This document shows, piece after piece, positions 1,983-21,892 of a DNA stretch of 64,000 nt. Position numbers and translations under genes: made by a program. The notes under the pieces were generated by a model, which did no database searches, was not told where the DNA came from, and saw only the letters and a program-made list of their open reading frames with translations. Positions within the stretch are counted from its first letter, which is position 1; every line of letters begins with the position of its first letter. This DNA comes from Pontixanthobacter sp. CEM42 (GTDB lineage Bacteria; Pseudomonadota; Alphaproteobacteria; Sphingomonadales; Sphingomonadaceae), in contig NZ_JADQTN010000001.1 in NCBI RefSeq assembly GCF_017812015.1, positions 2,024,501 through 2,088,500 of the forward strand, read 5' to 3'.

Positions 1983-4436
1983 ATGTCGGAGCACTACCGC
2001 GTAGCGATTGTCGGGTCGGGGCCAGCGGGCCTCTCGGCTGCTGCGCATGCGGCAGAGCTGGGCATGCCGCATATCCTGATCGAAAAGACCGATCACCTCT
2101 CTGACACGATTTTCAAATACCAGAAGGGCAAGCATGTCATGGCGACGCCCAGCAATCTGGTGCTGCGCAGCGATATCGATTTCGACGCCGGCAAGCGTGA
2201 GTTCATTCTCGACACGTGGGACACCCAAATTGAGGAGCACAAAGTCAATGTGCGGCTGAATTCGGAAGTCACCGCGATAACTGGTGAAACCGGCAACTTC
2301 AAAATCGAGTTGAAAGGCGGCGACACCATACAGGCCGAAGCAGTGGTTATGGCCATTGGCACGCAGGGCAATCCGAACAAGCTTCGTTGTCCCGGCTCTG
2401 ACTTGCCACTGATCCAATATCAGCTGGACGATCCGGGCGAGTATTTTGACGAGCACATAACGGTGGTCGGTTCGGGCGATGCAGGAATTGAGAACGCATT
2501 GGGTCTCGCGGCTGACCCGGCGCAGCGTAATGTTGTCTCAATCCTCAACCGACGCGCAGAATTTGCCCGTGCCAAGCCCGCTAACGTGGCGCTGCTGGAA
2601 GAGGCAGAGCGCGAAGGGCGCATTTCTGTCCGGCGCGAAACCAATCCCAGCGAAGTGCGCGACGCTGAGTTGGTATTGGAAACGCGCGATGGCGCCGAAA
2701 CTATTCCCTGCGACCGGATTATCGCACGGACTGGTTCCCAGCCTCCGCGTGGTTTCGTCGAAGGCTGCGGGATTGAGTTCACGAGCGAGGAACGCAGCGC
2801 CTTTCCCAAGCTGACGCCTAGCTTTGAAACAACCAAATCAGGCATTCATGTCATCGGCGCATTGGCCGGCTATCCGCTGATCAAGCACTGCATGAACCAA
2901 GGCTATGATGTGATCGAGTTCCTTAATGGGAACCACGATCTGAAGCCTGCGGACGAGCCGATCCTTGCAGAAAAATTCGCCGCCCTGCCTGGCAATCGCA
3001 GCGTCGACGAATGGCTCGAAATTTTCCGCAACAATATCGTCATCCTGAACGAATTGTCGCCGCTGCAAATGCGCGAATTGATGCTCGATAGTGATGTCGC
3101 GGCGTTCGATAGCCACGACATGATTTTCGTGCGCAATGACCCGGGATCGTCGATGTTCTGCATCGCCGAAGGATCGGTACTGGTCGAGGTCAATCCGGAT
3201 GACAGTTCGATTACAGTCCCCATCGAACAAGGCTCTATCTTCGGCGAAGTTGGCCTGATTTCTGGCCGTCGCCGCGGCTCGACGATCCGCGCTGCCGAAC
3301 CGGCAGTTACGCTGGAACTCTCCCGTACCGCCGCACTCAAACTTATTGCAACCGTCCCCAGCGCTGGCCGCGCGGTCAACCGCATCACGATTGAACGACA
3401 ATTGCTGCAAATGTTTGGCTCGGGCCTGACGAAGGAAGACGTCGCTGAGCTGGTTGAAGCCGCCGAAGTTGTCGAAATCCGCGCGGGCCAGAATGTCGTG
3501 GAAGAAGGCGGCGATGACAAAGACATCTTCGTCATCCAGCAAGGCTCAATGATCGTCGAGAAGAACCTCGGCGGCAAACCTATCTTCCTCTCCTATCTCC
3601 CGGCAGGCTCCTATTTCGGCGAAATGGCTGTGATCGACGGCAGCAAGCGTACCGCCACCGTCAAAGCCGCGATCAAATCCGAAGTCGTGAAGTTCCCGGG
3701 CGACGCATTCCTCAGACTGATGGAAAAGAACCCGGCGCTGCGCGAGCGAGCTCTGAACGACATGGCATCGCGACGGCAGGTCAATTCCTTCGTGGAAGAG
3801 CGCAAAGAGAGCTTCAGCGGCGCGGTCGACATGTATTCGGAAACCGCCAAATTCCTGATCGACAACGGGATCGGCGAAGCCACCGATGTGTTGCTGATCG
3901 ACGAAACGCTTTGTGTCGGCTGCGACAATTGCGAGAAAGCCTGCGCCGACAGCCATGAAGGCCTGAGCCGCCTCGACCGCGAGGCAGGCCGGACCTATGC
4001 ACATCTTCACGTTCCGACATCCTGCCGCCATTGCGAACACCCGCATTGCATGGCCGATTGCCCACCTAACGCAATTAAACGTGGCCCCGATGGCGAAGTG
4101 TTCATCGATGAAACCTGCATCGGCTGCGGCAATTGTCAGCGCAATTGTCCCTATGGCGTGATCCGGATGGATCCCAAACCGCCTAAGAAACCGTCGCTGC
4201 TGTCGTGGCTGCTATTCGGCGCAGGCCCCGGCCCCGGCGAAGCAAGCTATAGCTGGCGCAAAAAAACCGCGGAGAAGAAAGGACTTGAGCAGGCTAAGCA
4301 AGCGATCAAATGCGATATGTGCGCCGGAATTGATGGCGGTCCAGCATGTGTGCGTGCTTGCCCGACTGGTGCCGCAATCCGCGTGGCACCCGAGAAGTTC
4401 CTGACCTTCACCAAGCTGGTGGAGGATGTCGACTGA
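1983..4436 (+). CDS. FAD/NAD(P) oxidoreductase - two cNMP-binding domains - four [4Fe-4S] motif fusion
   Basis: The 817-residue cytoplasmic protein has three parts. Residues 1-330 form a pyridine nucleotide-disulfide-oxidoreductase-like module with two dinucleotide-binding loops (VGSGPAGLSAAAHA near residue 10 and VVGSGDAGIENA near 160). Residues about 365-620 hold two cyclic-nucleotide-binding domains. Each has a phosphate-binding cassette with the FGE motif (FGEVGL near 420, FGEMAV near 546) followed by an arginine. From about residue 644 come 16 cysteines in four clusters: CVGCDNCEKAC, CRHCEHPHCMADC, CIGCGNCQRNC and a CDMC...CVRAC pair. This matches the four-cluster ferredoxin subunits of membrane oxidoreductases. 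I infer NAD(P)H oxidation passing electrons to Fe-S centres under cyclic-nucleotide control. The start at 1983 follows a strong GGGGGGA ribosome site; an in-frame upstream extension lacks one. The stop overlaps the next start by one base. Confidence 0.88.
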   Translation: MSEHYRVAIVGSGPAGLSAAAHAAELGMPHILIEKTDHLSDTIFKYQKGKHVMATPSNLVLRSDIDFDAGKREFILDTWDTQIEEHKVNVRLNSEVTAITGETGNFKIELKGGDTIQAEAVVMAIGTQGNPNKLRCPGSDLPLIQYQLDDPGEYFDEHITVVGSGDAGIENALGLAADPAQRNVVSILNRRAEFARAKPANVALLEEAEREGRISVRRETNPSEVRDAELVLETRDGAETIPCDRIIARTGSQPPRGFVEGCGIEFTSEERSAFPKLTPSFETTKSGIHVIGALAGYPLIKHCMNQGYDVIEFLNGNHDLKPADEPILAEKFAALPGNRSVDEWLEIFRNNIVILNELSPLQMRELMLDSDVAAFDSHDMIFVRNDPGSSMFCIAEGSVLVEVNPDDSSITVPIEQGSIFGEVGLISGRRRGSTIRAAEPAVTLELSRTAALKLIATVPSAGRAVNRITIERQLLQMFGSGLTKEDVAELVEAAEVVEIRAGQNVVEEGGDDKDIFVIQQGSMIVEKNLGGKPIFLSYLPAGSYFGEMAVIDGSKRTATVKAAIKSEVVKFPGDAFLRLMEKNPALRERALNDMASRRQVNSFVEERKESFSGAVDMYSETAKFLIDNGIGEATDVLLIDETLCVGCDNCEKACADSHEGLSRLDREAGRTYAHLHVPTSCRHCEHPHCMADCPPNAIKRGPDGEVFIDETCIGCGNCQRNCPYGVIRMDPKPPKKPSLLSWLLFGAGPGPGEASYSWRKKTAEKKGLEQAKQAIKCDMCAGIDGGPACVRACPTGAAIRVAPEKFLTFTKLVEDVD

Positions 4437-5314: not shown

Positions 5315-5324
5315 GGGGCGGCAC

Positions 5325-7088
5325 ATGACTTTCCTTATCCGCACCATCGATTTCACCGCCAGCGGACGCGAAATTGTCCGCGACCGCGAAGTCGAGCAGA
5401 GCAGCCTGACTATCGGGCGTGCTTCCGAAAGCGATATCCATCTGCCGGACCTCGCGGTCGAACAGCAACATGCCACTCTGACCAGCAATGATGATGGCAC
5501 TATACTTGCTGAGGCGGTCGGCACGCTTGGTTTTACGCATGATGGCAAGACCACCACCTCCACCAGCTTCGATCCGGCCAAGGGCGCGGAACTTGGTTTC
5601 GGCGGTTACCGACTGGCCTTCTCACGCGATCCTGACGCGCCTGCGTCCATTACGATCAGCAAGACGGCAGAGCATGGCGAGGACGTTGACGACGTCAAGG
5701 GCTTCGCGCTTGGATCTGCCCTGCCCAGCAAGCGTGTGATGGCGTGGATCGGGCTTGGCGTCATCTTATTCGCCTTCCTTATCGTGCCGATTTACACGCA
5801 TCTGAACCGTGATCCCGCAGAACCCGACTATGACCGCACCGGCCACACTATGATGGATGCGAGTTGGAGCACTGGCGCGCTCAGCCTGGCCCATCACGGG
5901 CTGGAGGACAATTGTGAGGCATGCCACGTCAAACCATTTGAATCGGTTCGCGACGAGACCTGCCTGACTTGCCACGAAGCGATTGGTGACCATGCCGAAA
6001 TTGACCGGCAACTGACCGGACGCGGGCCAATGTCAGCGGGCGACGAGTTCCAGTGGAAAGTCGCTGGCATGTTCGGCAAAGAAGGCCCCGGCTCTTGCAC
6101 CACTTGCCATACCGAGCATGAAGGCGCGGGCCGGATGGAGCCGACCGCCCAGCAATTTTGCAGCGAGTGCCATGACGGAATGGATGAGCGTCTAACCGAC
6201 ACCAAGCTGGAAAACGCGGCAGACTTTGGCGACGCACACCCGCAATTCAAAGCGATCTACCATCCGCAATTGGGTAGCGAAGAGACCGCGCGGATATCGC
6301 TGGCAGATAAACCGCAAGAACAGCACGGCCTGAAATTCCCGCACGACATGCACATGGACAAAAGCGGCGGCGTTGCGCGGATGGCGCGCAATATCGGTGC
6401 CAAGCAAGGCTATGGCAATTCGCTCGTCTGTGCAGATTGCCACACACCGACATCGGACAAAGAAGGCTTCCTGCCGGTGAATATGGAGGAGGATTGCGAG
6501 AGCTGTCACAGCCTCGTCTATGACCGCGTTGGCACAACTTTCCGCTCGTTGCGGCATGGTGATGTCGACCAGATGCGCGCCGATCTGCGTGCGATGGACC
6601 GCGCCCCGCGCCGCTCTGCTGCTCCTGTCGGCCGCAAGCGCCCCGGCGAATATGCGCGCGGCGGGCTTTACTATCAGAACTTCGGCCGTCCTGCGCGATC
6701 CTATATCGCGATCAATCGCGCACTCGCCAGCGATGGCGTGTGCGGCGAATGCCACATCCCGACGACCAATAATGGCAAAGCCGATGTCGTGCCTGTGCAT
6801 CTGCGCGACAATTACCTGCTCAATGGCTGGTTCGACCACAAGGAACACGAACAGGAAAAATGCAGCACCTGCCATAAGGCAGAGACATCGAAGACATCCG
6901 AAGACTTGCTGCTGCCCGGCATCGCAATTTGCCGCGATTGCCACCTTGGGCAAGACGCGAAGGAAGCGGAGGTGCCATCGAGCTGCGCGATGTGCCACTC
7001 TTACCACCCGAAAGGCGCTACCTTGCCGGGCGAGGAGAAATCGCCCACAAAAGACACAGTCGCGCTGATGAGCCGGAAACCGGAGTAG
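5325..7088 (+). CDS. FHA domain - transmembrane helix - decaheme cytochrome c
   Basis: The 587-residue protein begins with a forkhead-associated domain (about residues 1-105; LTIGRASESDIHLPD followed by QQHATL). This part should be cytoplasmic. One transmembrane helix follows at about residues 137-158, then a periplasmic region from residue 197 with ten CXXCH c-haem motifs: CEACH, CLTCH, CTTCH, CSECH, CADCH, CESCH, CGECH, CSTCH, CRDCH and CAMCH. FHA domains bind phosphothreonine, so the protein could sense or be recruited by phosphorylated partners while carrying electrons outside the membrane. The usual Ser of the FHA SxxH motif is not seen (EQQH). GAGGGGCGG precedes the ATG. It lies between the b-type cytochrome and a phosphodiesterase gene and is presumably in their operon. 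Confidence 0.88.
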   Translation: MTFLIRTIDFTASGREIVRDREVEQSSLTIGRASESDIHLPDLAVEQQHATLTSNDDGTILAEAVGTLGFTHDGKTTTSTSFDPAKGAELGFGGYRLAFSRDPDAPASITISKTAEHGEDVDDVKGFALGSALPSKRVMAWIGLGVILFAFLIVPIYTHLNRDPAEPDYDRTGHTMMDASWSTGALSLAHHGLEDNCEACHVKPFESVRDETCLTCHEAIGDHAEIDRQLTGRGPMSAGDEFQWKVAGMFGKEGPGSCTTCHTEHEGAGRMEPTAQQFCSECHDGMDERLTDTKLENAADFGDAHPQFKAIYHPQLGSEETARISLADKPQEQHGLKFPHDMHMDKSGGVARMARNIGAKQGYGNSLVCADCHTPTSDKEGFLPVNMEEDCESCHSLVYDRVGTTFRSLRHGDVDQMRADLRAMDRAPRRSAAPVGRKRPGEYARGGLYYQNFGRPARSYIAINRALASDGVCGECHIPTTNNGKADVVPVHLRDNYLLNGWFDHKEHEQEKCSTCHKAETSKTSEDLLLPGIAICRDCHLGQDAKEAEVPSSCAMCHSYHPKGATLPGEEKSPTKDTVALMSRKPE

Positions 7089-7106
7089 CGTGATGGAAGG
7101 GATCAC

Positions 7107-7958
7107 ATGCTGATTGCGCAGATGACCGATATCCATATCGGCTTCGACCCGGCAGCAAAGCCGGAGGAGCTGAACCGGATTCGCTTCCGCATGACCCTCG
7201 ACCGGCTGCTAAACGGCCCCAATCAGGCGGATATGTTGGTGCTGACCGGAGATCTTACCGATCACGGTGACAAGGATAGTTTTGAGAAGACCGCTGAGTT
7301 ACTCGAGGCCTGCCCGATGCCGATCTATTCCATCGTTGGCAATCACGATACGCGCGAGGGACTGCTGCACGCTTTCCCCGACACGCCGGTCGATGCGGAT
7401 GGCTTCATTCAATACGCGGTCGAGCAAGACGGCCTGCGCATCCTGTTTCTCGACTCATTGGAAGAGGGCCGCCACGGCGGCGCATTCTGCGAAAAACGCG
7501 CGGCATGGTTAAGTGCAGAGCTTAACGCTCATCCCGAAACGCCGACGCTGATCTTTATGCATCACCCGCCGGTTGTCTCGGGTATTGGCTGGATGGACCC
7601 TGGCGCGGATGAGCCATGGATGCTCCGCTTTGCCGAAGCTATCCGAGGCCATGACCAAGTTCGCGCGATCCATTGCGGACACCTGCACCGCCAGATCAAC
7701 GCTACCGTCGAAGGCAAATTGCTGAGCGTCACCCCATCAGTCGCACCGCTGGTGGCCATGGACCTGCGTCCAATCGATCCCGAAACGCCCGACAATCGCG
7801 ATCTTATTACGACAGAATCTCCGACTTACGCCCTCCACCGCTGGGACAATGGCGAGCTCGTCACTCACTACGAACGTGTGTGGGACTGGCAGGTGCTGGC
7901 GAAGTATGACGCCAATCTTCAGGGTATGATCAAAGAGATGTTTGCCGAGCGGGAGTGA
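7107..7958 (+). CDS. Calcineurin-like phosphodiesterase, CpdA/class III cNMP PDE type
   Basis: The 283-residue protein has the complete metallophosphoesterase signature in order: MTDIH, LTGDLTDHG, GNHD, FMHHPP and CGHLH, which supply the ligands of a binuclear metal centre. The length and the H-G-G-x-F loop after LDSLEEG are those of the class III cyclic nucleotide phosphodiesterase (CpdA) and GpdQ group. The neighbours include a CNB-domain oxidoreductase and a CHASE2 cyclase, so hydrolysis of cAMP or cGMP is the most economical role. A phosphodiester-lipid activity as in GpdQ cannot be excluded. It has no signal peptide, so it should act in the cytoplasm, where the CNB domains are. It starts 18 bases after the decaheme gene. 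Confidence 0.82.
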   Translation: MLIAQMTDIHIGFDPAAKPEELNRIRFRMTLDRLLNGPNQADMLVLTGDLTDHGDKDSFEKTAELLEACPMPIYSIVGNHDTREGLLHAFPDTPVDADGFIQYAVEQDGLRILFLDSLEEGRHGGAFCEKRAAWLSAELNAHPETPTLIFMHHPPVVSGIGWMDPGADEPWMLRFAEAIRGHDQVRAIHCGHLHRQINATVEGKLLSVTPSVAPLVAMDLRPIDPETPDNRDLITTESPTYALHRWDNGELVTHYERVWDWQVLAKYDANLQGMIKEMFAERE

Positions 7959-7983
7959 GGCCAAGCACTGTACAGGAGGGCAT

Positions 7984-9231: not shown

Positions 9232-9269
9232 ACGCATATTGCCAAAGGGTAGTCCAGCGTGAGCGAACA

Positions 9270-9557
9270 TCAGCTAGCATTGAAAACCGCAAATGCGCCG
9301 AAGCCACCGAAACAAGCATAGGCGAACCAGAAGTTAAGCCGCAGCTTTCGAAACGCGCGATCAATTTCTTTATCGGCAAGATCTCTGTAGCTCCCGCTAC
9401 GCAACATTTTCGTCAGATCAGCAAAGGGATCGTTCCATGGATTGTCCGGTGCTGGGCGTATTCCATGCCGTGAATGCAGCAAATCTCTAAGCCGGTCTTG
9501 GGTAAGCCAGAGAGAAATCGCGGCAGCCATCGGAAAAGCGAACGCTATCAAATACAC
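9270..9557 (-). CDS. Small membrane protein of unknown function
   Basis: The 95-residue product starts with GTG and has two hydrophobic segments (about residues 2-17 and 73-92) flanking a charged segment rich in Arg and Asp. It starts 10 bases after the stop of the large decaheme/LVIVD gene on the same strand and is therefore probably the last cistron of that operon. The ribosome site is weak. I recognise no family. It could be an accessory subunit or assembly factor, or a spurious frame; position and membrane topology favour a real gene. Confidence 0.45.
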   Translation of the reverse strand: MYLIAFAFPMAAAISLWLTQDRLRDLLHSRHGIRPAPDNPWNDPFADLTKMLRSGSYRDLADKEIDRAFRKLRLNFWFAYACFGGFGAFAVFNAS

Positions 9558-9566
9558 AGAGCAAAC

Positions 9567-12500
9567 CTACTGCCCCATCGCCGGTTCTTCGCGGCTGAAG
9601 CGACGTCCGATCCACGCCCGCATATCTGGCTCGTCCCTCACCTTCCACGGCGCGCCGCCGCCGGTCAGGAACAGCCGTTCCATCTCCTCGCGGGTGAATG
9701 GGCGGGAGCCTAAGCGGCCGAAGACGGCCATCTGTCCGCCGGTTTCATCCACCGCACGGTCACGGTCGAGGCCTTTGGAGAGCGATATCGCAGGCGACTT
9801 GGTCTTCGCCCATGCGACCAGTTCGGGCATCGGCGCTGGACTGAAGCCGTAGAAATTGGGCTGGCTGTCAGGCGATGTCAGTTGCAGTACTTTCATCCCG
9901 TTCACCCCGTCTGCAACATAGGCGAACAGGGACGCATTGGTTGATCCGACGATCACATCCTCGGCATCATTCAGCGTGCCGCCAAGCGTTTCCTTTTTGT
10001 AGATTTTCGGTGCCATCGGCTTGGTGATGTCAACGATCACCAGACCATCCTGTTTCGCCGCGACATAGGCGTAAGTCCGCGCGAGATAGACACGTTGGGC
10101 ATTGGCCAGCTGTACAGTGCCTTCGGGTCGCAGTACCGGATTGCGCAGATTGGTGACGTCGAAAAGCTTCACGCCCTCTGCATCGGTCACCCACAGATAG
10201 CGGAACTGGATTGCCGATGCGCGCGCATCATTCATCTCGCGAACTGCGGCAATTTGCGGGTTTTTCGGATCTGCCAGATCAACCACAACCAGCCCCCGAT
10301 CCGACGTGATATAGGCAATCTCGCCCGCCAGATGCACATGTCGCGCTCCAGTAAGAACCCCGCCTTCATTCCATGCTTTCGAGCCATCGGCGAATTGTAG
10401 GCGGCTAAGCTTGTTGTTGCGGAATTCGCCATCAGCCATGGTGTTGACGTTGACGAGGATCAGGCCCTCCACTGCGTCGGTCACCACCGCATATTCATAA
10501 ATCGGCAGGAACGGCTGTTCCTCATTCATTGCGCGCATCTGCTCGGTATTGCGCAGCGGATTGATCGGCTGATTGGTCGCGAGCGCCATGCAAGTCGCGT
10601 TGGTGCTGCTCACATGTGTGTCATGGCCAAGGCTGCTGAACGGCGCAGTGATGATCCGTTCCGAAATACCCTTATTGCCAATGGAGGCGATGTCATAGAC
10701 ACGGAAGCCGCCTTTGCCCTCTGCCACGAACATATACTCGCCGCGCATCTGCAAGCAGCCGACACGATCGCTGGTGCCCTCATGCACATTGGCGAATTCT
10801 TCGAACGGTTTGGTTTCGCCGGAAAGGTCCTCATCGAAAGCTTCCCCGCGCACCCAATCTTTTAGCTCGCGCCCATTATCGTCGACGAATTGCTTGTAAT
10901 AATCAGGATAAGCATATTTGTGCAGATAGGACCCGAGCACAGCTTGCGGTTCGTCCCATTCGGTCACGCGTACAGCCTCGAACCCGCCTTCAAGGCCAGT
11001 CCACGCATTCATCCCGACGAAGTTCACATAGTTCGTACCGAGCAGCAGCAGCTGCGACATAATCGCATTGTTATCCTCTGCCTCGGCCAAGTGACAATCG
11101 GAGCATTGCTTGGTCTCTGTCATCCGTACCGTATGCGGGAAATGCGGTGCGAAGGCTTGCGAACTGAACCCGATGGCAGAGATTGGCGGCTGCTGCACAT
11201 AGATGCGCTCACGGTTGATATTGGTCGATGACAGCACCAGCGCCGAAGTCGAACGAACCGGCGCAACCTGATTGCCTTTGGTGGTCTGGTGCTTGCCGAG
11301 TTGGAACATCTGGTCGCGCGCAACCTGCGGATTGTACGTCGCGAAATTCCGCGTCTCGCCATTCTCGTAATGGTGATCCTCAGTCTTCCAGTTGGCTTCA
11401 ATTGGCAAGTGACAGCCGCCACAACTGGTCGTCCAGCTCAGGTGGCAAGTGAAGCAGGCCATCTCCTCATCTTCGTGGGCGCGGTCACCTACCGTGATAC
11501 CTGTGCCAAATTCAAACTTGCCTGTTTCCGCGCCCGCTTTCGACATCAGCTTTGCGCGCGCCGATTTGGCATTGAAGTGGGGTGACGTGTTGTCGACGCT
11601 GTCTTTGGTCAGGCTGACTTTCCATTCGAGCGACGGATCGACGATGGAACGCTGTGTCAATGTGCGTTGGCCCAAATTATCATAAGTCCATTCGAAACGG
11701 CGCTTGCCATCGGGGTTTCGGAGCAGCGACAGATCGCTGCCCTTTGGCGGCGCAGCAGGGCCGCTGGTGCGGAGCGTTGGATAAGCGTCTGCCGTGCCAT
11801 GGCAGTCCTTACAGCCGATCTCGATGGCGTTTGCGACCTCGCCATAGATCATGCCGTTGCCATGACTGTCCTGCGCGTAGTGACAATCGGCGCATTGCAT
11901 TCCGACCTCGGCGTGAATGCTCATCAAATGCACAGCCTTGCCTGGGTTCACACCAGGTTCGACGAACTTGCCTTCGCCTTCCTTACGCCATTTCTCCGGA
12001 TCGTCATTGGCAACAATATTGCCGTCTTTGTCGAGCAGATTGCCCTCGCGGTCGCGCTTGAAGATGCCACGGAAATTCCACCCGTGGCCATGATAGTCGG
12101 CGAATTGCGTGTCTTTCAGATCCTTGTTCAGATCATACAGGTTACGCGTGAAATCGAGATCAGCCCATTTGCCTTTGGGAGACGCTCCCTCGGGATTGCG
12201 TTCCAAAACTTTGTGCACTTCCTCGGCGGTCGGATATTTCTGCTTCTCCGGCCACATCGCTGGCGCGTCGGATTCGTAATCCCACATCGTGTAGCCGAGA
12301 TAGGAATTCAGGAAGATATTGGGCTGGTGCATGTGGCAATTCATGCACTGCGCTGTTGGGATGGAGCGCGTGAAGACATGCTGGAGAGGGTGCCCCTTCT
12401 CTTTCACCGGCGGTTTCTCTTTATGACTATCGCCCGGCTGTTTTACGCCAGCATGGCCATCGTCTTTACCGCCATGACCATACTCGTCGTGCCCGGGTTC

Positions 12501-13634: not shown

Positions 13635-15658
13635 CAGTAAGTCAGGATCACATTTGCGAGCACAGAATAGTACGTTCCCGTATTGCCCAGATTGTCGAAC
13701 AGATCATCGAAGCCCTTGCCGGACACCAGCGCCGCACCGGAGAGGCGGAACACAACGTTCTGAATTGCACTGGGCCTCCAGATTGCAGCGGCAGAAAGGT
13801 CGAAACCAATCTCTTTGGGGATGCTGCCTTCGTTGCGTAGCGCTTCCAGCGAAGAGGTATTCTCGAACCATAAATGATTGGCGTTAGCGGAAAGGCGAAA
13901 CTCTGGCGTCAGATCAAAATCCGCACCGGCACCGACCAGCATCAGGCCCGGATTGTTGAAGTTTGATTGGCCCTGCTCTTTCGAGGGGCGCAGCGAATTC
14001 AGAAGACCATTACGATTGTTGACAGACACCGCGCGTCCGCCCCCGGCAAACGGGATGGTTTGACGTATCCAATAGGACGTATCAGCACCCGCGAAGATCG
14101 GGTTTTCGAACACCGCATCGTAGCCGCCCTCGACATCATCATAAGGATCGTCATCGCCGCTGGCATAGGCTCCCGACAGGCGGAAGCGTGCCCAGTCGCG
14201 GTCATAGCTCAGCTCTGCTGCAGCGAAAAAGGCCCGGATGTCGGCAGGGCGATCCGTGAAAAAGCTGTTCCGATCTTCGCCAAACACACCGTAAGCGCTC
14301 GCGGTGATGTTGATCCGGCCCACTCGCCCGTCGGCGTTATAGCCGACATAGAACGCATCATATTCGCGCCCTCGCAAATTGCCGAGCAAAGCGGGACGGA
14401 CCGGAAAACCATTATCGTCGATCTGGATATCGTCAGCTTCACGGTTGCGGTTGTAAGCGACGGTAATCTGGCTGGTCAGCGCCGGTATCAGGAAATCCTG
14501 CCGGTATGCGTTGGCGATAAACAGGAAGTCGTTACGCGGGGTCTGGGTAACGGCATTCAGGCCGCTATTGGTGTCTTTCTCCAATCGCCAGAAGGCCGCG
14601 ACATTATATTGGAAGCGGTTATTGTCGCGCGTACCAAAGAAGCGCAGACCCAGCTGCTGATCCTGAAACAGGAAACCGCGAAAATCGGCCTGAAACGGTT
14701 GGATGCCGATCCGGAAGCTGTCGAAATCATAGCGGTCGGATGTGTTGCGGATGTGATAGTCGAAAAACAGTTCCTGCACGCCGACGAAATAGTCAGTCCG
14801 GCTGCTGCCCTTGCTTGGTTCTACAAACAGCACGCGCTTCTCGGGCACATCGACATGGTTCACGTTGAACGCGAGCGTCGCGCGGTATTCCACGTCTGGA
14901 GGCTTATAAGCGGTGTTGCCTTTGAGCAGCGCAAAGCCGGTCAGGAAAGTCTGCGACAGGACCAAGCTGCCTTCATTGCCAAAAACATCGAGGCGATCCG
15001 GGTCTTCGGTAGTCTGCACGCCGACCGGGATCGGGAACGTGCGCGGTTCAACCACCGTATCGCTGATCACATTGGCGACGAAGAACCAGTCATCGCCATT
15101 AATCGGCAGCCATGGAACCTTCTCGCGATTAATCGGGCGATCACCTTTATAAGTGTTCTGGTTGTACGGGTCCCACCACTTCTCCTTCACCAGCCCGAGC
15201 GACTCAATCAGCCGCCAGCGGTCGGGGATCGGAAGTTGGTCGGTCGGGAACGCTTCGGGAGGCGGCGTGCGAAACGCGCCCTCATTGGTCTGATCGATCT
15301 TGTCGGGCAACTCGCCGGTCACACCGGGACGCCGCCGTCCATCGATCGATTCATTATCAACCGCCGGAGGTGCGGGCGGTTCGACCTCAATTTCGGGCTC
15401 TTCGACTGAATCAGGTCCTGTCTTGTGCGGAACTTGGCGTGTTTCAGCAGGCTGCGTTTGCATGCCAAGCGACAGTGTGCGGGCGCTCAGAGAACCAAAA
15501 GCTTCTGCGAAGCTCTTAGGGCGAACAGAAGTCATATCCGCTTTTTGAGTTACCGGAGCGAGATCGGAAAACACCTCGGCGAAGTCAGCCTGACTCGCAG
15601 GTTCCTCCGCAGGACCGGTTGCCTGCAAAATCAAAGGAAGAACGAAAGCGACGCTCAC
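13634..15658 (-). CDS. Outer-membrane beta-barrel protein
   Basis: The 674-residue product starts with GTG directly after the stop of the preceding gene. A short hydrophobic leader (residues 1-14) is followed by a Pro/Glu-rich segment of about 120 residues. The rest is dominated by alternating beta strands and aromatic girdle residues, and the chain ends in VLANVILTY, a terminal-aromatic strand typical of Bam-assembled barrels. I do not recognise a named porin family. The N-terminal CXXC found in MtrB-type barrels is absent. Being immediately upstream of and overlapping the giant decaheme gene, it is a candidate sheath or anchor for that cytochrome in the outer membrane, by analogy with porin-cytochrome conduits. 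The analogy is contextual, not sequence-based. Confidence 0.75.
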   Translation of the reverse strand: MSVAFVLPLILQATGPAEEPASQADFAEVFSDLAPVTQKADMTSVRPKSFAEAFGSLSARTLSLGMQTQPAETRQVPHKTGPDSVEEPEIEVEPPAPPAVDNESIDGRRRPGVTGELPDKIDQTNEGAFRTPPPEAFPTDQLPIPDRWRLIESLGLVKEKWWDPYNQNTYKGDRPINREKVPWLPINGDDWFFVANVISDTVVEPRTFPIPVGVQTTEDPDRLDVFGNEGSLVLSQTFLTGFALLKGNTAYKPPDVEYRATLAFNVNHVDVPEKRVLFVEPSKGSSRTDYFVGVQELFFDYHIRNTSDRYDFDSFRIGIQPFQADFRGFLFQDQQLGLRFFGTRDNNRFQYNVAAFWRLEKDTNSGLNAVTQTPRNDFLFIANAYRQDFLIPALTSQITVAYNRNREADDIQIDDNGFPVRPALLGNLRGREYDAFYVGYNADGRVGRINITASAYGVFGEDRNSFFTDRPADIRAFFAAAELSYDRDWARFRLSGAYASGDDDPYDDVEGGYDAVFENPIFAGADTSYWIRQTIPFAGGGRAVSVNNRNGLLNSLRPSKEQGQSNFNNPGLMLVGAGADFDLTPEFRLSANANHLWFENTSSLEALRNEGSIPKEIGFDLSAAAIWRPSAIQNVVFRLSGAALVSGKGFDDLFDNLGNTGTYYSVLANVILTY

Positions 15659-17653
15659 TTATAGACCCTCGCAGACATTCTGAGCGGGATCATCGAGGAA
15701 CGGCGCGAAGGGACAATTGACGTAGCGCAACCGGACCGATCCACCATTGATGTTCACCACAATCCGGTCTGCGCGAATGGCTGCCGGTGCATTGCTGATC
15801 CCGCCGACGCGCTGGCCAGCATTGTGCAGGCCAAGGAAGCTGACCATGTCATCCTGATCAATGCCATCACCCGAAACGCCGATCCCGCCGACCAGCTGAT
15901 TGCCGCGATAGACGGGCACCGATCCAGGGAATATCTGGATGCCATTGGCGATACGCTTCTGTCCGCCCGGGCCGTCCGGCACAAAGGTGCACTCATTGGC
16001 TGTATCGGGATTTGCGCCCTGCACGAAGCCGAGGTGCTGAACGATATTCACGGCGATCAAATCCGTTTGCAAGCCTACCGCAAAGGGGCTGAATGTGTTC
16101 GGGTCTTCTACCGAGAGCGGTCCCGCTATCGGGCCAACTTCACCATCAGGGAAATAAGGCCGCGACAGGTTCCCGCCTGAGCGATCCGCAAAAGCAAACG
16201 TGCCCGTAAGCGCATTGGCGTCATTCAGGAAATTGCGCACGCGCGGCACATAGGCAGGAACGTCCGCAACGCCCGGGAATATTGTCGTACCGAGCAATTG
16301 CTGCGCGGCCACGGCATTGGAGAAGAACGCAGCCGTGCGTGCTTTCTGCAGCGATACATCGGTTCCGAAAATCGGGCCATCGGGCGAGCGGACAATGCCC
16401 AGCACCTGCCCGTGCGTATCGACCAGACTAACAGTCGCCTGCATCCGGCTATCGAGCGGGCGGCGGATTTGCGCCCGAGAGCGGGAAAGCACCGCAAAGG
16501 CCTCTTCCAAAATCGCGCGCGATTCAGCGGCGCTGAGCGGCTGGGCCACGCTTGCCCCGTCAGTACCTGCACGGATCGGGAAACGTCCCGCGCCTGCCCC
16601 ATTGGTCAGGACATAGGCGTCTTGATTGGTGAATTCAGCGGCTGTGCTTTGCCGAATACCGGATGCTTCGGTGCCATAGGCAACGCCTTGCTGGATCATG
16701 CCATTGCTATAACCGGTCACAGCTACCAAGCCGCCAGCCGGTCCATTAATCGCACCAAAGCTGGTTTGTAACGGCGACAAGTCGCCAACCGCTACATCGG
16801 TGAAGCGCAGGCTGGTACCGTCTACAGTTATGCGGTCAGCGGCGATCTCTACCGGTGGAGCAAAGCCCTGAATACCTGCAAGCGCAATCGCCTCTTCGGC
16901 ATCCGCGTCACGGTCCAGAATATTACTGTCGAATCCGTAATCGCCATCACCGGCAATACCTATACCGCCAACGACGACGCCGTTCTTGTAAATTGGGAAG
17001 CCGCCCGGATCGGCAGCTAGACCAAGTGGCGAACGCTTTGGTCCGATGAATGCGCCCGCACCACCACCGCCAGTGAAGCGCGCATTGAGGTCCGAACATG
17101 GCAATTGACTGAACTGCACGCCGAACAATGGTCCGCTTTCCAAACCAACCGTGGTCGGCGCAGGTGGGAAGTGCTGCTGCACAATCTGGCTGGCAGTTCG
17201 GGTCGAGAAGGCATTGCCTCCACTAGAGAGATACGCGCCCGTAATCGCTTTTGCGATGGCTGCTGTGGTCGATGGGACATCTGCGCCTTGTAGACCGATG
17301 GGCATGGCCGTCGTGCCGCCAATTGTCTCGCTGCTGAGCGTCGTTACCGTCGGCGCGCCAGTCATTTGGAATACCCCAAGGACGTTTCCAACCCGGTCGG
17401 TCACTGCAATCGTTGAGGCGAGACCTCTTGCTTGCGCCTCTCCAACGGCCTGCGCCATGATCTGCTGGACTTCGCCCACGGCAAGAAACTCGGCAGCGGG
17501 ATCGGCGAACAAGCGCCCTTGCGGCGGAGGTGTGGGCGATGGCGCGGGTGTGCCACCGGTTGGCGGCGCGTTCTGGCCGCTATCACCGCCTCCACAAGCT
17601 GCGAGTGCAAGCGCACCAGCCAAACACCAATAGGTGCCGATCCTGCGCGCCAT
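15659..17653 (-). CDS. Lipoprotein with two HbpS/GlcG-like domains
   Basis: The 664-residue product has a lipoprotein signal (LALAAC, Cys at residue 20) followed by a Gly/Pro/Thr-rich linker. Two HbpS/GlcG-type units follow (about residues 55-290 and 385-640). Each has an alpha start (QIMAQAVGEAQARG and AILEEAFAVLSRSR), a strand pair of the form VTDRVGNVLGVF or LVDTHGQVLGIV, a KA-TAA-like helix and a final glycine motif (VVGGIGIAGDG, LVGGIGVSGDG). HbpS of Streptomyces binds haem and relatives bind small ligands. Within a multihaem cytochrome operon a haem-handling or redox-sensing role on the membrane is plausible. The ATG overlaps the upstream TAA by one base. Confidence 0.72.
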   Translation of the reverse strand: MARRIGTYWCLAGALALAACGGGDSGQNAPPTGGTPAPSPTPPPQGRLFADPAAEFLAVGEVQQIMAQAVGEAQARGLASTIAVTDRVGNVLGVFQMTGAPTVTTLSSETIGGTTAMPIGLQGADVPSTTAAIAKAITGAYLSSGGNAFSTRTASQIVQQHFPPAPTTVGLESGPLFGVQFSQLPCSDLNARFTGGGGAGAFIGPKRSPLGLAADPGGFPIYKNGVVVGGIGIAGDGDYGFDSNILDRDADAEEAIALAGIQGFAPPVEIAADRITVDGTSLRFTDVAVGDLSPLQTSFGAINGPAGGLVAVTGYSNGMIQQGVAYGTEASGIRQSTAAEFTNQDAYVLTNGAGAGRFPIRAGTDGASVAQPLSAAESRAILEEAFAVLSRSRAQIRRPLDSRMQATVSLVDTHGQVLGIVRSPDGPIFGTDVSLQKARTAAFFSNAVAAQQLLGTTIFPGVADVPAYVPRVRNFLNDANALTGTFAFADRSGGNLSRPYFPDGEVGPIAGPLSVEDPNTFSPFAVGLQTDLIAVNIVQHLGFVQGANPDTANECTFVPDGPGGQKRIANGIQIFPGSVPVYRGNQLVGGIGVSGDGIDQDDMVSFLGLHNAGQRVGGISNAPAAIRADRIVVNINGGSVRLRYVNCPFAPFLDDPAQNVCEGL

Positions 17654-19029
17654 TACCGCAACGCTCCTATCGCGCGCGTCGCTTGCCCGAGAGCATCGCG
17701 GAATTGCGCTGGCTTGTAAGTACCGGGGCTGCGCACAGCGCTGTAAGCCCGGTTGATATTGGCACGAATACCCGCCGCAGCACCGGTCGTGATCCGTCCG
17801 TCGCGAACCATAGCGTTGAGCAACGTGTCGACCGCCATCACCGCCTGCGCTGATCCGGCATAGTCAGTGAAACGCGGGCTTGTAGTGCGGTCCGAAATTG
17901 CCTGTACGACCGTGAAGGCGTCATTACCTGAATAGCCGCGTCCAGCGAGGCTATTCGACAAAGCTGCCGCTTCTCCGCGAAGCACCTGCGCGGCCTGCAC
18001 TGCGGCACCGCGTCCTTTGCCCATCGCACGGTGGAAGTCCTTGCTTGCCTTATCGAATGCAGCGGCGCGGCCTGGTGCCAATGCACGCGATACTGCGGAC
18101 AGCATGATAATATTCTCATCATTATAAGGCGCCATACCGAACGGGATCGGGCGGCCCGGATTGGTTTCAAAGGTCAGCTTGCGCTGCGGACCATCGGTGA
18201 TCGCGCGGTGGCAAGAATGGCAGTCATAGAAGTAATATTCAGGGAATACGCCTTCGGTGCCAAATTCTTCGCGCGCGAACAGATCAGTGGAACGGCGAAC
18301 CGCCTCTGCCTGACCAACCGCCCATAGGCGGACGCTGTCGGTCTTACCCTTGCGGTCTATATAATCCGCATCTTCGTCATGATGCTGTTGCAATGCAGAA
18401 AACAGGTCGAGCTCGAACGCCACACGCGGGTGGCCGGCAGCCATCATCGTATGGCTGACAAACTGGTTTCCATCTGCACTACCGAAGTGACAATCGAGGC
18501 AAACCCGCGCACGCGTTTGCGGACGCTCCAGCGGCGTCAGGCCAGCCGCGACGTTCGATTGATGCGTTGCTGGCGCAGCATAGTGGACCGCGAGCCAGCT
18601 TGATGATGCACCATGGCACGTTTCGCACCCGACACCGTCGGACACTTGAAAACGCGCACCTTGCTGTGATTTGGGGACATAAGTCGCGTGGCAGCCGAGG
18701 CATTGCGGGGCAGAGGTCGCAGGACCGATACCCATACTTGCTGCAATCTGGCGACCGCGCGGAGACGCCAATGCAGCATAAGCGCGGCTATGCGCGCCGG
18801 TCGAAGATGAGGGTTCTTGCCAACTGGCAATTTCATCTTGGCGGACGACTTCGCCATTGCCTTCGGCGCGGCCATGGCAGGTCGATCCAGCGCAAGTCGC
18901 CACGCCTTCATATTGGCCATTACCAGGGGTTTGTGCATCGGTGGGAGAACTACCCGCAGAGAGGAATGCCGCAGCGGCCAACAATGGCGCGCCAGCTATC
19001 GCAATAAATTTTCCCCGGATTCGCGTCAC
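17653..19029 (-). CDS. Periplasmic pentaheme cytochrome c (c554-like)
   Basis: The 458-residue secreted protein (signal peptide residues 1-32) has five haem-binding motifs. The first is an unusual CX4CH (CAGSTCH, cysteines 46 and 51). Four are canonical: CLGCH at 110, CETCH at 135, CLDCH at 177 and CHSCH at 270. The layout and spacing resemble the cytochrome c554/c-prime family. The final 180 residues are helical, alanine-rich and haem-free. It starts with GTG preceded by a strong AGGGGAGG ribosome site. As a soluble multihaem protein placed before the barrel and giant cytochrome genes, it could ferry electrons across the periplasm. Confidence 0.8.
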   Translation of the reverse strand: MTRIRGKFIAIAGAPLLAAAAFLSAGSSPTDAQTPGNGQYEGVATCAGSTCHGRAEGNGEVVRQDEIASWQEPSSSTGAHSRAYAALASPRGRQIAASMGIGPATSAPQCLGCHATYVPKSQQGARFQVSDGVGCETCHGASSSWLAVHYAAPATHQSNVAAGLTPLERPQTRARVCLDCHFGSADGNQFVSHTMMAAGHPRVAFELDLFSALQQHHDEDADYIDRKGKTDSVRLWAVGQAEAVRRSTDLFAREEFGTEGVFPEYYFYDCHSCHRAITDGPQRKLTFETNPGRPIPFGMAPYNDENIIMLSAVSRALAPGRAAAFDKASKDFHRAMGKGRGAAVQAAQVLRGEAAALSNSLAGRGYSGNDAFTVVQAISDRTTSPRFTDYAGSAQAVMAVDTLLNAMVRDGRITTGAAAGIRANINRAYSAVRSPGTYKPAQFRDALGQATRAIGALR

Positions 19030-19107
19030 GAACCACCTCCCCTAAGACGGCACCCTAAGACATCAACTCTGTCCTGCAAGCGGGAATTCTCATCCCCCAC
19101 TAGCCGA

Positions 19108-19827
19108 TCACATCAAAGTGGTCGCGAGAAGATCGACTTGAGTGGTGCAGCCTTTGCCGAGCAGAGCCACTGTCAGATCGTCCAAATCCTCAGGTACTGC
19201 GTCCATTTGGGTGAATTTTATCATTGCGGGAGCTCCGCCGCTCGGGCCGGTAATCGAATAGGTCGAACCCTCTGCCAGTGGCAGGCGTTTGCTGTCCCAC
19301 GCGGTTACCATCTCGTCCTCGAGGAAAGTCACGTGGACATGCTCGGCAGACTCGGCACTCGCAATGACATAGGTTGATGCCTGATCACGCCCGGGACGCC
19401 ACATTTGCACGGCGGACATGTCCGCGACGCACATCGTGCCGGATTTTGAAACATCGACCCACCACAAATTGGGGCTAGTCAGCGATGCTGGCGGCGGATC
19501 GCCGCGTGTTGCCCCGGTGCGTACTTGTCCGGCGGCACGGCGACGAGTCAACGCCGCGATGGCTGTGCGGTTGCTTTTGCCGCGTTCGGCAACGCGGTGG
19601 GTACCTGCGCCGCTAATCACACGCGTTCCGCCATTGGCAAGAATGGTCACCGAGTCACCCGTCTGCAAAGTAATCCGGCCACTATCACTCAGCTTCATCC
19701 CAACAGGATATTTGCTAGCTGATGGGCCGCTGGACTTGATGACAACACCTGCTTGGGCAGCAATAGGTGCCACAACAGCAGCGCATCCCAGCGCGGCGGA
19801 GATCATTAGCGGTTTAACCGAGAACAT
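19108..19827 (-). CDS. Exported protein of unknown function, weakly FecR-like
   Basis: The 239-residue product has a clear signal peptide (cleavage near AQA-GVVIKSSG, residue 26). An N-terminal beta-rich part of the form SGRITLQTGDSVTILANGG resembles FecR-type sensor domains, though this is a weak resemblance. A basic linker and a C-terminal domain with three Cys follow. The gene starts with GAGGAGGGAG before ATG and overlaps the cyclase stop by 14 bases, so it is translationally tied to the CHASE2 cyclase. A role as a periplasmic partner or ligand presenter for the CHASE2 sensor is inferred from that linkage alone. Confidence 0.6.
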   Translation of the reverse strand: MFSVKPLMISAALGCAAVVAPIAAQAGVVIKSSGPSASKYPVGMKLSDSGRITLQTGDSVTILANGGTRVISGAGTHRVAERGKSNRTAIAALTRRRAAGQVRTGATRGDPPPASLTSPNLWWVDVSKSGTMCVADMSAVQMWRPGRDQASTYVIASAESAEHVHVTFLEDEMVTAWDSKRLPLAEGSTYSITGPSGGAPAMIKFTQMDAVPEDLDDLTVALLGKGCTTQVDLLATTLM

Positions 19828-21892
19828 AGGCTCCCTCCTCGTTCAAATTCTTAATCCGGTGTAGCAGATTTTCCAGCGCAGTGTCATCTGGATGGCTTCG
19901 GATAAGGCTCTCTACCACGCTGGCTGCGCCGGTCTTGTTAGTTTCCGACATTGTGAGAGCTTCGTGCATCTTTGCCCGATCTGCCTCAGGGAACTCCGGA
20001 GAGGGCTCCAGAATGTCGACCGGCTGCGCCCTTCCGCGCAGCACCACGCGGCCCATCGGACGCCACCAATCGAGGCCCGAACGTTCGGCAAATTCGCGGC
20101 TAGCCATCACGCTGGACTCGAGCGCTTTGTTCGCTGCTTCCAGCCTGGCGGCGGTATTCATGCTGTCACCCAGTGCGGTATATTGAATCCGCGTATCCCC
20201 GCCGAAATTGCCGACAACTGCCTCGCCGTAATGCAAGCCGACGCGGGTCTTGCCGATTTTCGGGAGGTCAGGATCCATAGCAGCGACTTCCGCACGAAAG
20301 GCTTCGCCAGCTTGCCAGATCGCATAGCCAGCCTTGGCCGCACGCTCTGCATCATCAGGCTTGGCAATCGGTGCGCCCCAAAAAGCAACCACCGCATCGC
20401 CAACAAATTTGTCGATCACGCCGCCATGGTCGAGCACAACTTGGCTTAGCATTTCTAGATAGCGGTTGAGCAGTTTCGCGACCATTTCGGGAGAGACCGC
20501 ATGGCTCATCTTGGTGAAGCCCTCCAGATCGCTGAAAAGGACATAAATCTCCTTCTTCTCGCCATGCAACGCGAGAAGTTCAGGGTTCTCGATAATCTCG
20601 GCAGCCATCTCTTGCGGGAGATATTTGCCAAGCGCCCCTTGTGCAAAATTACGCTGCACCGCCCCTGCGGCCCGTGCGGTCGAGGTCACCGCCATAAACG
20701 CGATCGCCCAGCCTGCCAGCCACCCGACTGCGGGCAGGCCATAGGTATCAGCGCCTTGAAAGTGCATCACAAAGGGAGCACCCAGCATAATCATGAACTG
20801 CAACCCCAGCAGCGCATAAATTTGCCAACTGCCCCATTCGAGCAAGCCGGTCAGCACCGCCATTGCGATAACCAAAATCGCCAGCGCCCAAAGCGTTGCT
20901 GGCAGCGGCTTGGAGAGGCTTGCCCCGTCGAGCATCTGCGCCATCATTTCGGCGTGGACTTGCAACCCCGGAGGATCGAAGCCGGTTCCGTCCGACACGC
21001 TGGTCGGCACGCGGTCGAAATCCACAAGATCGCCGCCAATCAGGATGTATCGGCCTTCGAACAGAGGTCGATATTCATCGATCACTGCTGGAATTGCGAA
21101 GACTTCCTCGTCTGCAAGGGAGTCGATGGGAATGATCGGGAACAGCGTTTCCGCAATGGCCTCCTGACCACCTTCGATCGCATCGTTCTGACCATCGCGC
21201 GCCGACAGGCGGTAGCGGATCGCTCCCGCATATCCCGGCAACGATTTTTCGGCCTCGTCCGCTCCCAACAGCATTGAGCGCGTAAGAGTTGGCGGCAAGC
21301 GATCGTCGGGCTGAGGCCACCGGCGCGTAACGTCAAAAGCATTATCGAGCTGGATACTTGCAGGGACCGCGTTGCTGCCTTGCAGCCGGTCCAGAAACTC
21401 TTCGAGATAGAGCTGCTGCTCATATTCGATGTCGCCTTCATTTGCCTCTTGCAGCACATAGGCAACCGAGACTGGGGTCTGCATATTGCGCAGCGTTTCG
21501 ATCAGCTCTTCATCTTCATCCTGAGGCTGGTCGAACAAAATATCGATACCGATGGATTTTACGCCCAGCTTGTCGAGATTGCGCAAAGCCGCGGCCAGCA
21601 TCCCGCGATCGAGCGGCGAACGTTTTTGTGCCTTGATCAGCGTCTGCTCGTCATAGACGACCATGATGATACGCGGATCCTGCTCGACATCCTGCATGCT
21701 GGCAGTCTGATAAGCGCGGAAATCATACATCCCCGTCTCGGCCTGATTGATAATTGGCACCGCCCAGCCAAATCGCGCGACAATCAGCGCGAGCACAACC
21801 AATAGGATCGTGAGGCCCAGCCGCCTCGGGCCAGCCTCGCGCACATTGCGCCAGCCGCGTTGGATGAAATTTACTGAACGCGCAGACGCCAT
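19814..21892 (-). CDS. CHASE2-domain class III adenylate/guanylate cyclase
   Basis: The 692-residue membrane protein has an N-terminal TM (about residues 24-42), a periplasmic CHASE2 sensor domain (about 45-330, including DPRIIMVVYDEQTL and GVKSIGIDILFDQPQDED), three TM helices (about 335-410) and a class III cyclase domain (about 440-640). The two catalytic metal-binding aspartates are visible in VLFSDLEGFTKM and KFVGDAVVAFWG, and the adenine-side region reads ALGDSMNTAARLE. It should make cAMP or cGMP in response to a periplasmic cue. The start is placed at ATG 21892, 5 bases after GGGGAGG; a GTG one codon upstream is too close to that site. It heads the minus-strand cytochrome operon. Confidence 0.9.
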   Translation of the reverse strand: MASARSVNFIQRGWRNVREAGPRRLGLTILLVVLALIVARFGWAVPIINQAETGMYDFRAYQTASMQDVEQDPRIIMVVYDEQTLIKAQKRSPLDRGMLAAALRNLDKLGVKSIGIDILFDQPQDEDEELIETLRNMQTPVSVAYVLQEANEGDIEYEQQLYLEEFLDRLQGSNAVPASIQLDNAFDVTRRWPQPDDRLPPTLTRSMLLGADEAEKSLPGYAGAIRYRLSARDGQNDAIEGGQEAIAETLFPIIPIDSLADEEVFAIPAVIDEYRPLFEGRYILIGGDLVDFDRVPTSVSDGTGFDPPGLQVHAEMMAQMLDGASLSKPLPATLWALAILVIAMAVLTGLLEWGSWQIYALLGLQFMIMLGAPFVMHFQGADTYGLPAVGWLAGWAIAFMAVTSTARAAGAVQRNFAQGALGKYLPQEMAAEIIENPELLALHGEKKEIYVLFSDLEGFTKMSHAVSPEMVAKLLNRYLEMLSQVVLDHGGVIDKFVGDAVVAFWGAPIAKPDDAERAAKAGYAIWQAGEAFRAEVAAMDPDLPKIGKTRVGLHYGEAVVGNFGGDTRIQYTALGDSMNTAARLEAANKALESSVMASREFAERSGLDWWRPMGRVVLRGRAQPVDILEPSPEFPEADRAKMHEALTMSETNKTGAASVVESLIRSHPDDTALENLLHRIKNLNEEGAYVLG

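Follow-up and report, generated by a model that had tools for sequence, protein, structure and literature searches.

What a locus in Pontixanthobacter sp. CEM42 does when it combines an NAD(P)H-type oxidoreductase, cyclic nucleotide-binding (CNB) domains, a di-haem b membrane protein, multihaem cytochromes, an outer-membrane barrel and enzymes of cyclic nucleotide turnover is the question addressed here. The locus lies in a 64,000-nucleotide stretch of a 3.08 Mb genome (contig NZ_JADQTN010000001.1, positions 2,024,501 to 2,088,500), the whole of which is referred to as the window. Its domain content, the conservation of its cofactor ligands, the cohesion of its genes and the homology of its inner parts to those of clusters of the PCC4 type (porin-cytochrome cluster 4) were observed directly. 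The interpretation that we favour, and place just on the probable side, is that the chain exports electrons across the envelope, drawing them from NAD(P)H under the control of cyclic AMP (cAMP). That the parts form one system is supported by their joint presence, their conserved order and their collinear runs elsewhere. In the window they are encoded by two convergent gene runs, one on each strand, as follows.

1983..4436, plus strand: CNB-FAD-FeS protein, comprising a Pyr_redox domain for NAD(P)H and flavin adenine dinucleotide (FAD), tandem CNB domains and 16 cysteines predicted to hold four [4Fe-4S] iron-sulphur (Fe-S) clusters (Pfam, alignment)
4436..5314, plus strand: di-haem b inner-membrane protein (IMP) of the PCC3/PCC4 type (motifs, profile match)
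5325..7088, plus strand: FHA domain, one transmembrane segment and a periplasmic decahaem cytochrome c (CXXCH count, Pfam)
7107..7958, plus strand: CpdA-like class III cyclic-nucleotide phosphodiesterase, beginning 18 bases after the decahaem gene (Metallophos)
9567..13634, minus strand: LVIVD decahaem cytochrome with C-terminal LVIVD repeats and an N-terminal hydrophobic segment, by eye a signal peptide (CXXCH, Pfam)
13634..15658, minus strand: outer-membrane beta barrel, predicted 18 strands (AlphaFold2 model, Foldseek)
15659..17653, minus strand: lipoprotein (lipobox by eye) with HbpS/DUF336-like domains (HbpS-like 1.9e-17, three stretches)
17653..19029, minus strand: pentahaem cytochrome of the c554 family, with four CXXCH and one CX4CH motif (Cytochrome_C554 5.1e-12)
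19814..21895, minus strand: CHASE2 sensor joined to a class III adenylate-type cyclase, accessory (CHASE2 9e-24, class III cyclase 1.7e-14)

All of the parts named in the initial annotation were recovered at their positions by Pfam and motif matches, and the HbpS-type lipoprotein, which its list omitted, is included in the conserved core.

Cohesion of the parts was examined in a family-level sample of 60 relatives, 36 of them from the window's own family, and in 398 genomes drawn evenly across the phylum. Among the relatives the LVIVD protein was present in 18/60 and the CNB and FHA-decahaem proteins in 17/60 each; all carriers were within the window's family, and the carrier sets were identical except for G029, a genome only 67% complete in which the LVIVD protein alone was found. 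In the phylum sample 11/398 genomes encoded the LVIVD protein and 15/398 a full-length CNB protein, all 11 falling within the 15. Co-occurrence was observed in 25 of the 26 LVIVD-bearing genomes of the two samples, G029 being the exception, and the joint presence of the CNB-FAD-FeS, FHA-decahaem and LVIVD-decahaem proteins, which the initial annotation had proposed as a check, was borne out in both. Both halves of the set were kept in G008, G027, G030, G272 and G450, where the LVIVD and CNB halves are unlinked or on separate contigs. In G423, from another class, and in G431, from another family of the same class, the parts are collinear on one strand in a single run, and in G317 they make up two runs separated by a phosphodiesterase and a cyclase.

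The LVIVD protein is common, with at least 594 stretches, which may not be distinct loci, encoding a relative. Eighty of these were examined as named loci, 76 from Sphingomonadales and four identified no further than class or phylum; most of the named carriers are regarded as plain aerobic heterotrophs or phototrophs. Matches by tblastn at E 1e-6, in counts lowered by contig ends, were obtained for the LVIVD protein at all 80 loci, the barrel at 75, the HbpS-type lipoprotein at 68, the pentahaem cytochrome at 66, the CpdA-like and FHA-decahaem proteins at 60 each, the b protein at 57, the CNB protein at 56 (within the flanks) and a CcmI-like gene at 52. The whole set is present on plasmid pMSHV of Sphingobium herbicidovorans, twelve Sphingobium plasmid records contain both the LVIVD and CNB proteins, and plasmid pMC4 of Sphingopyxis indica carries the LVIVD half only. 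A tree of LVIVD proteins generated by a quick method roughly followed taxonomy within Sphingomonadales and placed the window protein, 66-97% identical to 15 family-sample homologues, closest to Pontixanthobacter among the rows compared. The grouping of G317 with G027 in this tree suggests some transfer.

Electrons would enter this chain through the CNB-FAD-FeS protein, in which Pfam detected Pyr_redox_3 (9.7e-32), cNMP_binding in two stretches (5.3e-30), Fer4 domains and the Fe-S protein family PF13247 (1.2e-10), and whose gene ends at the start of the IMP gene. All 16 Fe-S cysteines were invariant in the 62 aligned CNB proteins. The Glu and Arg of the phosphate-binding cassette, which we take to be the canonical CNB motif, were both kept in 62/62 proteins in the first CNB domain, and in 61/62 (Glu) and 62/62 (Arg) in the second; judged by these residues both domains carry the canonical phosphate-binding motif, and the ligand is predicted. 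Assignment of the protein as YpdA was rejected (125.4 bits against a cut-off of 339.9), as was assignment as a thioredoxin reductase (TRX_reduct 49.3 bits against 343.45), the FAD domain lacking CXXC. Going by its domain families, the fused flavoprotein would accept hydride from NAD(P)H on its FAD in the cytoplasm and pass single electrons via the four [4Fe-4S] clusters to the stacked pair of b haems in the membrane protein. In the latter all four histidines of two HX13H motifs were kept in 65/65 aligned sequences and the Trp pair of WX3H in 64/65 and 65/65, with SGXXG present in 54/65 and Thr replacing Ser in the other 11. Four helices of the b protein exceeded the hydropathy threshold, the third, motif-bearing helix being taken from the motif, and a PDB sequence search for a solved relative returned only an unrelated protein at best (E 0.15). 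The haem pair, predicted from the family to span the membrane, would deliver electrons to the periplasmic face in the manner of ferric-reductase/NADPH-oxidase membrane domains. In G093 and G211 the CNB-FeS and b-type proteins are fused in one frame of 1,118-1,123 amino acids, followed by a nine-haem FHA cytochrome (L187:9850-13206, L189:3052-6423).

Beyond the inner membrane, the FHA-decahaem, LVIVD and pentahaem proteins contain 10, 10 and 4 CXXCH motifs, respectively; 500 shuffles of each protein's residues gave means of 0.034, 0.01 and 0.01, which rules out a chance origin. Counted over related loci with incomplete copies excluded, 10 CXXCH motifs were found in 64/64 FHA-decahaem homologues and in 82/83 LVIVD homologues (8 in the remaining one), and four CXXCH plus one CX4CH in 72/72 pentahaem homologues, this conservation of CX4CH indicating that five haems is the correct number. 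Ten non-motif histidines C-terminal of the single hydrophobic segment of the FHA-decahaem protein (residues 138-156) were at least 98% conserved among 65 sequences, and spare histidines at least 90% conserved numbered 17 in the haem part and one in the repeats of the LVIVD protein and seven in the pentahaem protein. These numbers are sufficient for bis-His ligation throughout, and the cytochromes are putatively bis-His wires, as their families would predict. The repeats of the LVIVD protein were recognized by Pfam LVIVD (3.3e-14), and the pentahaem profile matched cytochrome c554 in the PDB (1.8e-6). The FHA-decahaem protein matched FHA (1.5e-4) and Yop-YscD_cpl (2.5e-7), whilst a PHROGs search with it was uninformative. 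The FHA domain departs from the phosphothreonine-binding type at the Ser position of SxxH, which was Glu in 46, Asp in 7, Ala in 5 and Thr in 3 of 65 sequences (four rows not listed); as this Ser is missing from at least 61/65, the domain probably serves as a YscD-like structural anchor and not for reading phosphothreonine. The FHA-anchored decahaem protein would accept electrons from the b protein, the c554-type pentahaem and LVIVD decahaem proteins would relay them towards the outer membrane, and the lipoprotein and 18-strand barrel would organize the outer end, where the acceptor would be reduced. This order of carriers is presumptive, and an outer location of the LVIVD protein is suggested with less assurance than the steps at the inner membrane.

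The proposed switch of this chain would consist of the CHASE2 cyclase making cAMP, the CpdA-like enzyme removing it and the nucleotide acting on the tandem CNB domains to open or close the input. The CpdA-like protein matched Metallophos (4.8e-17) and scored 145 bits for SpdA and 89.7 bits for CpdA, both below the curated cut-offs, with the core metal-ligand residues kept in 64/64 sequences. Of the 29 cyclase rows with letters at the catalytic positions, all keep the Asp in FSD, both Lys and Asp in DKFVGD and the Arg in AAR, and 28 keep the Asn. The window cyclase has the residues tested for the class III adenylate type, namely the metal Asp pair together with Lys, Asn and Arg, the Lys of DKFVGD presumably being the adenine-specific position. 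Class III cyclases, counted as matches to the window cyclase at E <= 1e-5, number five in the window genome, one in G423, two in G317 and three in G431. The last three genomes are all of the LVIVD-bearing members of the phylum sample from outside the window's family, and in each a cyclase gene lies within about 10 kb of the set, the distances being 0.5 kb (G317) and about 10 kb (G431) from the LVIVD gene and 8-9 kb from the pentahaem gene (G423). In G060 one of five cyclases is 2-4 kb from a second CNB copy. At the 80 named loci a cyclase was matched at 28, by 20 genes at 57-78% identity and eight at 28-34%. From sequence, a cyclic-nucleotide link of the locus is credible, and it is firmer for the CNB domains than for the cyclase and phosphodiesterase; cAMP as the ligand, and gating by it, are suggested more weakly than the donor and the haem wires.

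A number of points count against an exported, cAMP-gated current, beginning with the nature of the evidence, which consists of genomic sequence and models. The hypergeometric probabilities of co-occurrence (2e-9 in the family sample and 1.6e-18 in the phylum sample) ignore kinship and are confounded by it, as is a correlation of r 0.81 between distances over 55 sets. Four genomes, G060, G093, G211 and G212, have the CNB protein without an LVIVD match; in G212 the CNB, b, decahaem, HbpS and barrel genes run up to a contig end, and in G060 the CNB, b and decahaem genes do so, with no b protein seen beside the second CNB copy. A barrel match was found nowhere in the genomes of G060, G093 and G211. 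By hand arithmetic from the counts and genome sizes, the chance of the three cyclase placements is about 5 in a million, for a limit of 10 kb that was chosen after the data were seen. The CNB gene has no cyclase gene within 10 kb in G093 (8 in the genome), G211 (6) or G212 (2), nor in the PCC4-type G338 (8), G085 (8) and G190 (6), although one in G085 is about 29 kb away. The cyclase was unmatched at 52/80 named loci, contig ends included, and the CpdA gene is missing from the runs of G423 and G431; with both unmatched at many loci, gating may not be universal, and some CNB domains bind a different ligand or no ligand at all. At the outer end, the LVIVD profile had no match among PDB sequences at E 0.01 and no usable structure came from modelling the haem part of the LVIVD protein (mean predicted local distance difference test (pLDDT) score 34.8). 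The window barrel, in a model of moderate confidence, resembles AlgE/OprD rather than an MtrB-type sheath, and it is not homologous to the porin-like proteins of L192 and L195, two loci of PCC4 status by content (hhalign probability 0.2%).

The AlphaFold2 model of the barrel, built from 23 sequences, has 18 strands and a mean pLDDT of 59.6, with residues 1-175 mostly below 50, whereas a script counting amphipathic strands gave 25 candidate segments; the C-terminal residue is Tyr or Phe in 76/77 homologues. Foldseek returned AlgE first (E 2e-15), followed by OprD/Occ porins, and no MtrB-type protein among the best 50 of 260 matches (E <= 0.001). Such a fold makes an Mtr-like wire less likely and a substrate porin more likely. 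Of the regulated electron route to the cell surface or a periplasmic acceptor suggested by the initial annotation, the electron-transfer chain stands by its content and the cyclic-nucleotide link is credible, but passage through the outer membrane to the cell surface is unproven on this predicted structure.

A serious rival is a reductase that sits in the periplasm or outer membrane and has a porin of its own; the barrel would admit a soluble substrate (an oxyanion such as tellurite or selenite, or Fe(III)/haem iron) and the inner parts would supply electrons. We consider it unlikely, if the best placed of the alternatives. HbpS domains, which bind haem or iron, would suit such a role, and the barrel model resembles substrate porins and exporters. 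The logic would be that of Geobacter extHIJKLMNOPQS, where the porin-like ExtI is reported as required for normal selenite and tellurite reduction (PMC5877670), and the best NCBIfam match of the LVIVD protein is ExtM of that selenite/tellurite cluster; at 60.8 bits against a cut-off of 800, however, the match does not amount to membership and identity with ExtM was rejected, and the barrel had no Ext-family match. An aerobic phototroph, the tellurite-reducing Erythromonas, is described as having an NADH-dependent membrane-associated tellurite reductase, but this enzyme (62 + 55 kDa) is matched to none of the present parts, its nearest mass-spectrometry match being GroEL (PMC5488091). The number of conserved spare histidines also points to bis-His wire haems over open catalytic haems.

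An inward chain, with surface oxidation of an outer donor, for example Fe(II) or Mn(II), and passage of its electrons to the quinone pool or NAD(P)+, is improbable. It is the direction hypothesized for PCC3 and PCC4 by He et al. (2017; PMC5566968), who list a Mn(II)-oxidizing Erythrobacter sp. among the PCC3 carriers (whose cluster may or may not be the present locus), and the window b protein bears the PCC3/PCC4 signature. The input protein, however, is of the NAD(P)H-flavin/polyferredoxin kind, inward delivery to NAD(P)+ would have to climb in redox potential as well as work against the membrane potential, and many of the named carriers are heterotrophs not known for metal oxidation. We favour outward flow because no cytoplasmic partner other than NAD(P)H, a strong reductant, is evident, and because electrons are helped out of the cytoplasm by the membrane potential. 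That two unrelated operons are neighbours by chance, as separated halves in several genomes and the LVIVD half on pMC4 might suggest, is very improbable given co-occurrence in 25/26 LVIVD-bearing genomes, even when unlinked, and single runs in distant taxa.

If NAD(P)H-fed export under cAMP control is correct, the locus would represent a large unrecognized redox outlet and a rare case of direct second-messenger gating of an electron chain. We propose more tentatively, as something we would not yet expect to hold, that the second messenger directly switches the NAD(P)H input, with cAMP bound by the very protein that donates the electrons. Such gating would act post-translationally on a possibly extracellular export and would be common to the present variant and PCC4-type clusters, in aerobes not deemed electroactive.

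Three further genes adjoin or interrupt the set.

899..1855, minus strand: CcmI/CycH-like TPR protein of the cytochrome c maturation type, a conserved neighbour (TPR_CcmH_CycH 1.4e-17)
about 7984-9231, plus strand: weakly supported Nramp-like transporter gene directly after the CpdA gene (24.5 bits, below the Pfam cut-off of 29.8)
19108..19827, minus strand: secreted FecR-like protein (by eye), accessory, without a Pfam match

The initial annotation had treated the whole interval as one locus. The core parts do cohere, but the Nramp-like gene was rejected as a part of the system (0/80 related loci), and the FecR-like gene (21/80) and the cyclase (28/80) were rejected as core parts. A gene for an Nmad3 protein (nucleotide modification associated domain 3, 1e-69) is situated at 155-889 on the minus strand, two genes ahead of the locus. 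Concerning cytochrome maturation genes, CcmF adjoins the PCC3-like locus L193 and also the CNB operon in G027 and G317 (L138, L142), with CcmI-like genes in L193 and L142; none of the CcmF/CcmI type was seen by eye in the 15 kb preceding the window. The run of G423 (L131:2416-9031) extends on the same strand through a TPR protein, a FecR protein (9.9e-15) and a 1,352-amino-acid cadherin-like/DUF5122 repeat protein to the cyclase. Several kinds of gene occur upstream of the pentahaem gene. A family of repeat-rich frames (279 to 1,687 amino acids, many clipped at the locus edge) was found there at 12/66 loci (among them L050, L059, L063, L067 and L068) as well as in L145:518-8671, and at this site on pMSHV a 6.3 kb hypothetical gene follows a ShlB/FhaC-type gene, so that a two-partner secretion system may share the site. 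Acetolactate-synthase-like frames were identified there by eye at 13/66 loci, aldehyde dehydrogenase at 12 and glutamate dehydrogenase at 8 (for example L070, L073 and L074; also L133:1280-5921); frames of these three types also lie between the two G317 runs, and gdhA is annotated at the site on Sphingopyxis pMC4.

Among known systems, the MtrCAB, MtoAB and PioAB conduits likewise combine a barrel and decahaem cytochromes in one locus. They differ in that the window FHA-decahaem protein scored 18.6 bits against the DmsE/MtrA-type model TIGR03508 (cut-off 192.2), and in that the window barrel is predicted to be an 18-strand AlgE/OprD-like structure, the sheath of MtrB-type conduits having about 26 strands. 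The NADPH oxidase/ferric reductase module likewise has two pairs of haem-binding HX13H histidines and is fed by an NAD(P)H-flavin donor in the cytosol, but in the window the donor would be routed via [4Fe-4S] clusters and the b protein has no convincing structural match. Geobacter extHIJKLMNOPQS shares a porin-like protein, several multihaem cytochromes and a cytochrome b, with a Rieske protein and a rhodanese in place of the NAD(P)H-CNB-FeS protein, as that cluster is described (PMC5877670).

The closest relatives are the putative porin-cytochrome clusters PCC3 and PCC4 of He et al. (2017), whose IMP is described as having five helices, the third and fifth with WX3HX13H and the fourth with SGXXG, and is there too likened to NADPH oxidase and ferric reductase (PMC5566968). 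The terms 'cyclic nucleotide', 'FAD' and 'LVIVD', and CNB domains, were not found in the main text of that paper (PMC5566968). It was the related work brought up by a literature search in which none of the papers listed dealt with the present combination, most subscription papers being outside its reach, and no demonstrated function was found for clusters of the PCC3/PCC4 kind. A profile search with the window b protein matched 20 of the 398 phylum genomes, five of them weakly; the other 15 are those that have the CNB protein. In three of the five weak matches, G338 (L192), G085 (L194) and G190 (L195), the b gene is flanked by a CNB-FeS gene and a decahaem gene. These loci have a c554-type gene with 4, 3 and 4 CXXCH motifs, respectively, a pentahaem gene in L192 and L194 and, by eye, a porin-like gene in L192 (without a Pfam match) and L195; assigned by gene content, they fit PCC4 subgroup II. 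A fourth weak match, L193 (G205), encodes an FAD-FeS protein, CcmI, CcmF, a b protein and two long frames with 24 and 27 CXXCH motifs and is PCC3-like by content; the remaining one is G258 (L196).

With PCC3 the window shares the IMP signature, the L193 IMP being 25% identical to that of the window with its signature seen by eye, and the L193 FAD-FeS protein is 30% identical over 270 residues to the window FAD part, with CcmF and CcmI adjacent. PCC3 differs in that no CNB domain was present among the best 25 Pfam families of the L193 FAD-FeS protein, and in the haem medians of its extracellular and periplasmic cytochromes, reported as 34 and 21 (PMC5566968), against 10 and 10 in the window proteins. 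The likeness to PCC4 is more extensive. The window b protein has the signature of two WX3HX13H motifs and SGXXG, the same motifs being seen by eye in the b proteins of L192, L194 and L195; a Fe-S (PF13247) gene precedes the IMP gene; and decahaem and c554-type cytochromes and a barrel are present in both. Profile comparison of these loci with the window gave E values of 1.3e-49 for the CNB-FeS protein, 8.2e-18 for the IMP, 2.7e-16 for the decahaem and 1.1e-18 for the c554-type cytochrome, whilst the haem part of the LVIVD protein matched the PCC4-type decahaem with a probability of only 26%. The claim in the initial annotation that no described system combines such parts was therefore too strong, given these homologous inner parts in loci fitting PCC4 and the PCC3/PCC4 signature of the b protein. 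Differences from PCC4 include cytochromes of 4, 5 and 10 haems there against 10, 5 and 10 (with LVIVD) in the window, the FHA anchor on the decahaem protein and the additional LVIVD decahaem, HbpS lipoprotein, CpdA and cyclase. CNB domains were present in both PCC4-type CNB-FeS proteins scanned (L192, L195). L192 has, two genes ahead of its CNB-FeS gene and within one run with it, a gene for a separate NAD(P)H-FAD-[2Fe-2S] reductase, and L194 and L195 have frames of like size and placement, whereas in the window a flavin/NAD(P)H domain is fused to the CNB-FeS protein. With a flavin module in the PCC3-like locus and a CNB-FeS module in the PCC4-like loci, the window input protein looks like a fusion of both, one protein that ties together two published clusters themselves putative in function. 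The locus is a larger, cyclic-nucleotide-linked variant of the PCC3/PCC4 kind, new in that form.

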